DNA of 64,000 nt from the NCBI GenBank assembly GCA_009773205.1, contig WPAE01000011.1, positions 1 through 64,000 of the forward strand, given 5' to 3'. The notes beneath the pieces are model-generated. The model searched no databases and had not been told where the DNA came from. It was given only the letters and a program-made list of their open reading frames with translations. Positions 40,369-44,559 of the stretch are shown here, one piece after another. The position numbers and the translations under genes are program-made. Each line of letters starts with the position of its first letter. Position 1 is the first letter of the stretch. The DNA is from Ignavibacteria bacterium (GTDB lineage: Bacteria > Bacteroidota > Ignavibacteria > Ignavibacteriales > Melioribacteraceae).

Positions 40369-40880
40369 TTACCTCATCAATACAAATTTTTTGGTTTTAC
40401 TAAAACCTTGTCCTGAGCCAGCCGAAGGATTACCAGCTTGTAAACGGTAAAAATATATTCCGCTCGGTAAAGATGATCCGCCAGAGGCGGAATGCCTCGC
40501 CTCTACGTTAAATTTGACATTATATGTTCCGGCTTGCTGATATTCATCAACTAATATCGCAACTTCGCTTCCAAGAACACCATACACTTTAAGTGTAGCG
40601 TGTACCGAAGTCTCACCTCCCGCTCCGCCTTGCGTTGAGCGAGGCGAGTTGGGGAGATTTAGAGGGGCTATTTGGTAACTGATTGTTGTGCTTGGATTAA
40701 ACGGGTTTGGATAGTTTTGAGAAAGAGAAAAGTTTGTAGGTGTTTTCTCCTGACTTCCTTTAACCGATGTAGTTTTATCAGCACTTCTAAAAACTTCACC
40801 TTTATTAGTCCCCGCAAAAATTTGACCGCCACCATTTATTGCAAGAGAAAGTACATGTGTATTAATGAAGCTCCCCGCAG
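40369..40880 (-). pseudogene. Orphan T9SS sorting tail of a propeller-type secreted protein
   Basis: The frame contains the last part of a propeller unit ([24 protein letters not shown]), a short linker and a complete T9SS sorting domain ([14 protein letters not shown] ... KTKKFVLMR). No signal peptide or front part remains; the upstream join near 40880 is repeat DNA. The sorting domain carries three GC-rich in-frame inserts (about 40412-40438, 40480-40515, 40610-40660). Confidence 0.75.
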
Positions 40881-41098
40881 CAAGCAGCGTGGAATTCAAC
40901 CCTTAGTGATTAAATCAGGTTCGTCCATAATGTATTATCCGGATAATTTTGAACGTTTCCTTTTAAAACAAAAAAAGGACGCAACTTTCGTTACATCCTT
41001 CATAGAGGCACTGGCATGCCCAATCACAAAGACATAAGAAAGCGCGTCCATTATCTGGACGCAACCTTCTTGCATGTTCTTGTGATTTGAAAATTACC
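40880..41098. repeat. Palindromic repeat region next to the T9SS remnant
   Basis: Imperfect inverted repeat GGTTCGTCCATAAT (near 40918) / ATTATCTGGACGCAACC (near 41050-41066). The 41041-41098 part is repeated at 41771-41831. The plus-strand open frame here is not a gene. Confidence 0.55.
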
Positions 41099-43150: not shown

Positions 43151-43200
43151 ATTTCACTGAGCGAATATGAATAAAGTTTTAGCATAAGTAGAAAGGTTCT

Positions 43201-44559
43201 ATGTTTATAGATACTCACGCACATCTATTTTATCCTAATTTTGAAAATGATTTAGATCAGGTGATCGAGCGCGCTAAAAATTCCGGCGTTGATTACATGA
43301 TTGTTCCCGGAACGAATTTGGCAACTTCGGAAAAAGCTGTTAAACTTGCTGAAAAATATGATTGCATTTATGCAGCAGTTGGTGTTCATCCGCACGATTC
43401 AAAAGATTGGAACGAGAATTATATTCCAAAACTCGAAGAACTAGCAAAACAAAACAAAGTTGTTGCAATTGGGGAAACAGGACTTGATTACTATTACGAT
43501 TTTTCTCCAAAGGAAAAACAGATTGCTGCTTTCAAAGATCAAATAGAATTAGCTCTCAAACTTAAGCTGCCAATTATAGTTCACAACCGCGATGCTAACG
43601 AAGACATGATGAACATTATCCGTTTTTATAAAAGCTCCGAATTGCGCGCACAGTTTCATTGTTTTGCTGGTTCGGTTGAAGACGCACGAGAGCTTGTGGA
43701 AATGCATCATTACATTTCTTTTCCGGGCAACGTTACTTTTAAAAAGATGGATAGTATCCGCAAAGTATTAAGCCGTGTTGCAATAGAAAATCTTTTGCTA
43801 GAAACCGACTCTCCATTTATGACACCAGTTCCTCACCGCGGTGAAAGAAACGAACCTGCGTTGATAAAATTCACAGCAGAAAAATTTGCCGAAGTTCATC
43901 ATCTTACAATTGAAGATGTTGGAAGAGCAACATCTGCAAACGTTCATAAACTTTTTGGCATTGGTATGAAACCAGAATTGCATTTTACTTATCAGATTGG
44001 TCAATCACTATACATTAACGTAACAAATCGTTGTAACGCAGATTGCGTTTTTTGCGATCGCAAAGGCGACGCAATAATTAACGGCTATAGTTTGAAGATG
44101 ACAAAATCTCAAGAACCCGAAGCCGATGTTTACATTAAAGAAATTGGGAATCCAACGCGCTTCAACGAAATTGTTTTTTGCGGATACGGCGAGCCCACTA
44201 TTCGCTGGGATGTTGTGAAAGAAGTTGCAGCATATATTAAAACTAATGGGGGCAAAACAAGAATGAACACTGACGGTCACGGAAATTTTATCAACAAACG
44301 AGATATAACTCCAGAGCTTAAAGACACTATTGATACTGTTTCGATAAGCTTAAACTCAGCCAATCCAGAACAATATGCAAAACTTATGCGCGTTGATGCT
44401 TCTATGCATAGCGAGATGATTGACTTTGCCAAGAAAGCTAAAAATTATACACACGTGGTTTTATCAATAGTTGGATTGAATGAAATTGATAAAGAAGCCG
44501 CCAAAAAATTTGTAACGGAAGATGTGGGTGTTGATTTTAGAGAACGCGAATATTTTTAG
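43201..44559 (+). CDS. TatD-family hydrolase fused to a TatD-associated radical SAM domain
   Basis: A 452-residue fusion. Residues 1-255 form a TatD metal-dependent nuclease (DTHAHLF, GETGLDYYYDF, HNRDA, HCFAGS, ETDSPF). Residues about 265-452 form a radical SAM domain with Cys278, Cys282 and Cys285 (CNADCVFC) for the 4Fe-4S cluster and a GYGEPT SAM site. The radical SAM protein is known as a separate gene linked to tatD in other bacteria; here both are one frame with no stop between. The chemical product is unknown; TatD trims DNA or D-Tyr-tRNA in different reports. Confidence 0.9.
   Translation: MFIDTHAHLFYPNFENDLDQVIERAKNSGVDYMIVPGTNLATSEKAVKLAEKYDCIYAAVGVHPHDSKDWNENYIPKLEELAKQNKVVAIGETGLDYYYDFSPKEKQIAAFKDQIELALKLKLPIIVHNRDANEDMMNIIRFYKSSELRAQFHCFAGSVEDARELVEMHHYISFPGNVTFKKMDSIRKVLSRVAIENLLLETDSPFMTPVPHRGERNEPALIKFTAEKFAEVHHLTIEDVGRATSANVHKLFGIGMKPELHFTYQIGQSLYINVTNRCNADCVFCDRKGDAIINGYSLKMTKSQEPEADVYIKEIGNPTRFNEIVFCGYGEPTIRWDVVKEVAAYIKTNGGKTRMNTDGHGNFINKRDITPELKDTIDTVSISLNSANPEQYAKLMRVDASMHSEMIDFAKKAKNYTHVVLSIVGLNEIDKEAAKKFVTEDVGVDFREREYF

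Follow-up and report, generated by a model that had tools for sequence, protein, structure and literature searches.

The window, a stretch of 64,000 nucleotides from an Ignavibacteria bacterium, encodes a genuine and probably bifunctional fusion in which a TatD nuclease domain and a radical SAM domain follow one another in a single chain. The pairing of the two families is already known to NCBIfam; here we trace it as a fusion of old standing, passed on stably with occasional losses and a split. The gene is read as 452 codons from an ATG without any internal stop (Table 1). Its N-terminal part matches PF01026 (TatD_DNase; 286.3 bits, residues 3–253) and TIGR00010 (286.2 bits against a cut-off of 206, residues 2–253), and thus contains a complete TatD domain that scores above the family threshold. 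Its C-terminal part matches PF04055 (Radical_SAM; 70.6 bits, residues 272–434) and TIGR04038 (207.7 bits against a cut-off of 129.7, residues 262–451). The latter alignment spans model positions 2–191 of 192, and the minimal radical SAM domain is complete as well. The original prediction had placed both domains in one frame, with intact metal ligands and an intact CxxxCxxC motif, and the sequence bears this out. The HxH motif of group II TatD proteins is present at H6 and H8, all six positions that we take to be the metal ligands (H6, H8, E92, H128, H153 and D203) are occupied, and the CxxxCxxC motif of the radical SAM superfamily is formed by C278, C282 and C285. Likewise, the statement that the two proteins are known as partners elsewhere agrees with the family's title at NCBI: TIGR04038, a model of the kind subfamily_domain, is named 'TatD family nuclease-associated radical SAM protein', which puts the association on record. 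In the fusion protein, the TatD to which this name refers lies in the same frame.

Table 1. Coordinates of the fusion gene and its parts in the window.
Feature	Position	Strand	Basis or remark
AGAAAGG, ribosome-binding-site-like	43190..43196	+	4 bases before the fusion-gene ATG; read in the sequence
TatD::radical SAM fusion gene	43201..44559	+	452 aa + TAG stop; ORF reading and family matches
TatD nuclease domain, residues 2–253, group II (HxH at H6/H8)	43204..43959	+	profile matches, conservation
D239 codon, last TatD helix	43915..43917	+	sole pre-linker TatD position tracking the fused state
Linker, residues 253–261	43957..43983	+	spacing count across fused proteins
Radical SAM domain TIGR04038 (tatD_link_rSAM), residues 262–451	43984..44553	+	profile and fold matches
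C278-xxx-C282-xx-C285, [4Fe-4S] cluster motif	44032..44055	+	Cys conservation across rows

A frame of this kind could in principle arise from a sequencing or assembly error that deleted the stop between two adjacent genes, the event that had been named as fatal to the prediction, and one relative (G014) does hold the two parts as adjacent genes with a TAA between them. We regard this explanation as having a negligible chance of being correct and reject it, since the same full-length frame recurs in tens of independent assemblies from near, phylum and class samples. These include five genomes assembled into one contig (G013, G024, G035, G037 and G038) and the record of Stygiobacter electus strain 09-Me (L034), which is not labeled as a metagenome-assembled genome. 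A contig search returned 19 loci, mostly from Ignavibacteria kin as judged by title, and phmmer found all 19 to be fused over their whole length, the closest being Stygiobacter sp. RIFOXYC2 at 90% identity and S. electus 09-Me being among them. In the comparison of fused and split forms that the original prediction proposed, long fused frames dominate, and G014 is the one split. Among 39 near genomes, 37 pass the TIGR04038 cut-off and 35 carry open frames of at least 453 residues. In G034 the TIGR04038 match lies at a contig edge with the TatD end still attached, and G003, a genome that is 75% complete, contains no strong match. In G016 (L082, 557–1982) the frame of the fused gene is broken within the radical SAM part into 409 and 90 residues and scores below the cut-off, which may reflect a pseudogene or an assembly error.

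The pattern extends across the class and the phylum. At a match threshold of 1e-25, 86 of 395 genomes sampled from the phylum are positive, 29 of which belong to family f26 and encode stand-alone proteins. Outside f26, the frames reach at least 452 residues in 55 of the 57 positive genomes, and the matches in the other two (G034 and G390) lie at contig edges. In the class sample, the TIGR04038 part is found in 81 of 197 genomes, in 78 of them within frames of at least 425 residues, where the presence of TatD in these long frames was checked by phmmer on the fetched loci rather than on every row; the remaining three (G034, G390 and G470) run off contig ends. Counting TatD copies at 1e-30 in the 81 positive genomes gave one in 75, two in five and none in one, the last being G470 with its match at the contig edge. 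The genome of the window also has a single TatD match, namely the fusion gene. Together, these counts indicate that the fusion is usually the cell's only TatD.

Residues expected to be catalytic are kept almost without exception in the fused proteins, which yielded 77 distinct rows for TatD and 78 for the radical SAM part. E92, H128, H153 and D203 are present in 77/77 TatD rows, and H6 and H8 in 76/77, the exception (L175) being a gap where the end of a contig truncates the row. All three cysteines (C278, C282 and C285) are kept in every fused row (78/78) and in every stand-alone row (33/33). Between the two domains, exactly 12 residue steps separate F252 from Y264 in 76/76 fused proteins, and the intervening sequence varies. 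The linker thus acts like a part of the fold rather than a loose tether, and such constancy is not rare. In a control on 75 rows, 284 of 440 12-residue stretches showed no length change, as did 85 of the 192 stretches whose variability roughly equals or exceeds that of the linker. Because these 85 comparable stretches are equally constant, we do not take the constant length of the linker as proof of function.

Upon comparing fused proteins with relatives of the same clade that lack a fused radical SAM part, we noticed a single position in the TatD domain that follows the fused state. Of the 77 fused rows, 72 have an aspartate at residue 239; those without it are L002, L003, L016, L029 and L031, and the four distant f21 rows are not among them. 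The residue is never an aspartate in the ten unfused rows (nine that lost the radical SAM part and the split G014), nine of which, including G014, have a glutamate and one an alanine. Among the 78 TatD positions at which the fused consensus reaches at least 80%, residue 239 alone differs in 10/10 unfused rows; the runners-up, residues 254 and 255, differ in 7/10 and both lie within the linker. At 95% conservation, no TatD position ahead of the linker distinguishes the fused rows, D239 falling just below this mark. When mapped on the tree, four independent pairs agree in almost every random pairing (mean 3.9 of 4); D239 was picked after looking, and four pairs are too few for significance (p 0.125). 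In the AlphaFold model, residue 239 sits in the last TatD helix (residues 237–252). The pattern hints that this helix meets the radical SAM part; it is a lead rather than a proof.

In the split form of G014 (L007, minus strand, on a contig of 1.25 Mb), an in-frame TAA at 2083–2085 interrupts the linker; one codon follows, and then an ATG starts the radical SAM part. Both halves are otherwise of full length and the two genes remain adjacent, from which it follows that one chain is not strictly required.

Phylogenetic trees of the two parts are fit by a simple history: one old fusion is enough, after which the radical SAM part was lost in some places and split off once. The radical SAM tree, which carries a long-branch warning, notably for L083 (f21), L114 and L115, sets 80 rows (fused, split or truncated) apart from the 33 stand-alone ones with a support of 100/99. 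In the TatD tree, which is midpoint-rooted, the fused rows of the class fall in one clade of 83 with a support of only 87/86. Nested within this main fused clade are nine TatD-alone rows in three places (L134; L161 with L162; and six f4 rows), and their most plausible history is that the radical SAM part was lost and TatD retained, with three losses by parsimony. The fewest state changes on the 86-row tree number five. Four fused rows of f21 lie outside the main fused clade when the TatD tree is left free. A tree constrained to join all fused rows is 4.33 log units higher and is not rejected (p-AU 0.586), and for this reason we do not claim an independent second fusion in f21. Repeated independent fusion is without support, since the trees need just one event.

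Stand-alone relatives of the radical SAM part offer a view of the domain on its own. The fused forms differ from the 33 stand-alone rows (f26 and clostridial) at H360, G361, P332, T333, R287 and M396, among others; positions of the H360 type are nearly fixed in fused rows and are shared by 0–3 of the 33 stand-alone rows. In f26, no TatD lies nearby in 12 of 12 regions of 13–15 kb from 11 genomes. In one of these regions (L109, 5483–11235), the stand-alone TIGR04038 gene is clustered with genes for an ABC permease, a BcrAD/BadFG ATPase and two HGD-D dehydratases, and genes related to this cluster also occur in L107, L108 and L112. Two genomes (G172 and G227) have two copies of the radical SAM gene each. 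On a human faecal contig (L114, 1906–5702), a gene of the sister family TIGR04100 lies beside quinolinate phosphoribosyltransferase and Sir2 genes, and RtcB is encoded as well. These neighbors point to no nuclease partner. L114 is filed as phage and looks bacterial. Five stand-alone matches (L071, L073, L075, L077 and L079) contain one apparent internal TGA. We rejected selenocysteine from the reading of three of them: in L073, L077 and L079 the TGA, which follows FRVR or FRIR, is the gene's own stop and the alignment overran the end of the gene. The other two, L071 and L075, lie on the minus strand. Viral contigs returned two matches, too distant at 24% identity to be of use.

The neighborhood of the fusion gene likewise offers no functional hint. 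In the window, its neighbors are purM, PBP4, prmA and isochorismate synthase genes, all matched above cut-off, and a MarR-type regulator gene recognized by sub-threshold matches. Among 19 named loci, some of which are cut by contig ends, we counted purM in 14, PBP4 in 16, prmA in 18, the MarR-type regulator in 15, isochorismate synthase in 17, and in 16 a gene that by eye looked menD-like. Each of these six neighbors occurs in 0/15 loci from outside the order. Elsewhere in the window, a short frame on the minus strand (40369–40899) has no NCBIfam match at 1e-10; it includes a 16-residue stretch that resembles a secretion-sorting tail.

Structure prediction pointed to no particular substrate. 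The AlphaFold model of the whole chain has a pLDDT of 86 and a pTM of 0.70, and its TatD part best matches solved TatD nucleases, led by the S. aureus DNase 6l25 (TM-score by target 0.94), to which it is 44% identical in sequence. The 16 solved TatD relatives that we compared have lengths of 246–401 residues, and radical SAM appears in none of their names; the fusion protein differs from them in its C-terminal radical SAM domain. When modeled alone, the radical SAM part reached a pLDDT of 81 and a pTM of 0.80 and superimposed on the pyruvate formate-lyase activating enzyme 3c8f with a Z of 13.0 (176 residues, rmsd 3.1), with NifB, lipoyl synthase, viperin and MoaA all within about two Z units of this match. 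Ranked by Foldseek E-value, human lipoyl synthase comes first, pyruvate formate-lyase activating enzyme second and Bacillus QueE ninth. A QueE model is absent from the best 25 of 32 NCBIfam rows for the fusion protein. For the radical SAM part, the closest solved protein by sequence, 5wgg, is a weak match (E 0.0076). Beyond the protein's own two families, the best NCBIfam scores go to MoaA, viperin and a tungsten-oxidoreductase maturase (37–51 bits), far below their cut-offs; within the radical SAM sequence comparison, MoaA scores 37–51 bits, viperin 47 and PFLA 29. As modeled, the radical SAM part consists of the core alone, without any domain added to it, and its fold singles out no substrate.

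In its full-length domain, its HxH motif and its six ligand positions, the TatD part is like the TatD/YcfH proteins of group II (TIGR00010, PF01026). In the published group I/II scheme, HxH places such proteins in group II with E. coli YcfH and YjjV, and the activities given for TatD proteins are those of a 3'-5' exonuclease and an AP endonuclease (PMC10085689). With 154.3 bits against a cut-off of 262, the fusion protein is not a member of TIGR04100 (rSAM_pair_X), whose proteins are stand-alone; around the Monoglobus gene of this family, no TatD is found among 14 listed features. The Monoglobus plasmid protein and two proteins from human faecal contigs exceed the cut-offs of both TIGR04100 and TIGR04038. 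In the Qat anti-phage system, QatD is a TatD protein and QatC a QueC-like enzyme, so that here too a TatD is tied to an enzyme of nucleobase chemistry (PMC13279940, PMC13329287). The fusion protein scores 82.1 bits against the QatD model (cut-off 230) and is not a member, and no Qat gene was found among the six scanned neighbors in the window. A search of the open-access literature, including by family name, found no paper on the function of the TatD–radical SAM pairing; judged by title, none of the open-access papers that mention both radical SAM and TatD concerns it.

What might the two halves do together? The TatD half, being of group II and YcfH-like, would be expected to act as a metal-dependent 3'-5' exonuclease and AP endonuclease. 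The radical SAM half would bind a [4Fe-4S] cluster and SAM and would make a 5'-deoxyadenosyl radical. Because the radical SAM core has no added domain of its own, its target may be a bulky partner, or else a nucleic acid or nucleotide that is presented by, or released from, the TatD part. We lean, by barely more than an even chance, towards a bifunctional protein whose radical SAM half acts near the TatD half on a nucleic acid, a nucleotide or a bulky partner. Most likely, it would treat nucleotides or nucleic acid ends that are damaged or modified, and would do so in two steps. The main competitor, which we hold to be possible and rather less probable, is that the fusion only eases production of the two enzymes together: each has a substrate of its own, and they were joined once and have been inherited as one chain ever since. 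A single fusion event suffices for the trees, three losses of the radical SAM part are counted by parsimony, stand-alone forms exist without a TatD nearby, and other families of the class fuse the same TatD C-terminus to something unrelated. The losses and the stand-alone forms, which mean that neither part needs the other everywhere, are what keep this explanation strong. Against it stand the retention of the fusion in nearly every sampled member of several families, the constant spacing, the D239 pattern and the family name at NCBIfam, which ties the two proteins together in general. The claim that the fusion argues for a common substrate consequently holds in part: the 12-residue spacing, the multi-family retention, the adjacency of the G014 pair and D239 speak for it, and the sufficiency of one fusion event, the three losses, the stand-alone proteins without TatD, the commonness of constant spacing and the p of 0.125 for D239 hold it back.

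It is also conceivable, and in our judgment unlikely, that the radical SAM domain works as an activating enzyme or a peptide maturase would, with a protein or the TatD domain itself as its target. The closest solved fold by Z, pyruvate formate-lyase activating enzyme (second by Foldseek E-value), agrees with this, as does a weaker NCBIfam similarity to peptide maturases. Yet many other radical SAM cores come within about two Z units of this match, and in sequence both MoaA and viperin outscore PFLA. MoaA and viperin act on nucleotides. Returning to a radical SAM half that works beside the nuclease, a specific version, which we consider improbable as it stands, is a one-chain radical enzyme for nucleic acid repair: the radical SAM part would chemically convert a damaged or modified 3' end, an abasic site or an excised nucleotide, and TatD would do the excising. 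In such an enzyme, the last TatD helix, the site of D239, might form a fixed interface at which the lesion is held. If true, an entire lineage of bacteria would have a radical SAM repair route as part of its usual TatD. Spore photoproduct lyase is a radical SAM repair enzyme, and the route considered here would be a different one. Whichever chemistry applies, a usually single-copy fusion with constant geometry in Stygiobacter electus provides a convenient single reagent for finding the substrate, and the lineage supplies natural controls in the form of radical SAM losses, one split, and D239 changing alongside.

In class families without TIGR04038, we observed a second extension of TatD. At 15 loci (L116–L129 and L131), no stop closes the TatD frame, which continues through a hydrophobic stretch resembling a signal peptide into a barrel-like protein. 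From its sequence and from weak Pfam matches, this C-terminal part looks like an outer-membrane beta-barrel: among seven proteins, the best match was OMP_b-brl at 23.4 bits, under the cut-off of 28.7, and some proteins had no barrel match. A profile of the C-terminal part, built from 13 loci and reaching about ten residues into the TatD tail, matches 37 of 194 class genomes, once each and always in a stop-free open frame of 410–674 residues; the match in the 410-residue frame begins at base 4 of its contig. This count is a lower bound, as the profile missed G234 and G455 (f13; L122 and L123), which have similar and longer tails. The genome of the window has no match to the profile. In at least 35 of the 37 genomes the match abuts TatD in a frame of the same length, the other two, G146 and G168, lying beyond the TatD matches listed. 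Among the open-access papers listed, no title points to such a fusion. The last TatD helix of these proteins also serves as the charged beginning of the signal peptide, and all 15 loci have one or more possible internal starts upstream of the hydrophobic stretch. The product may therefore be one chain that is cut by signal peptidase, or two nested products. One would not expect a cytoplasmic nuclease to be joined to an exported barrel, and this arrangement is perhaps more surprising than the radical SAM fusion itself.
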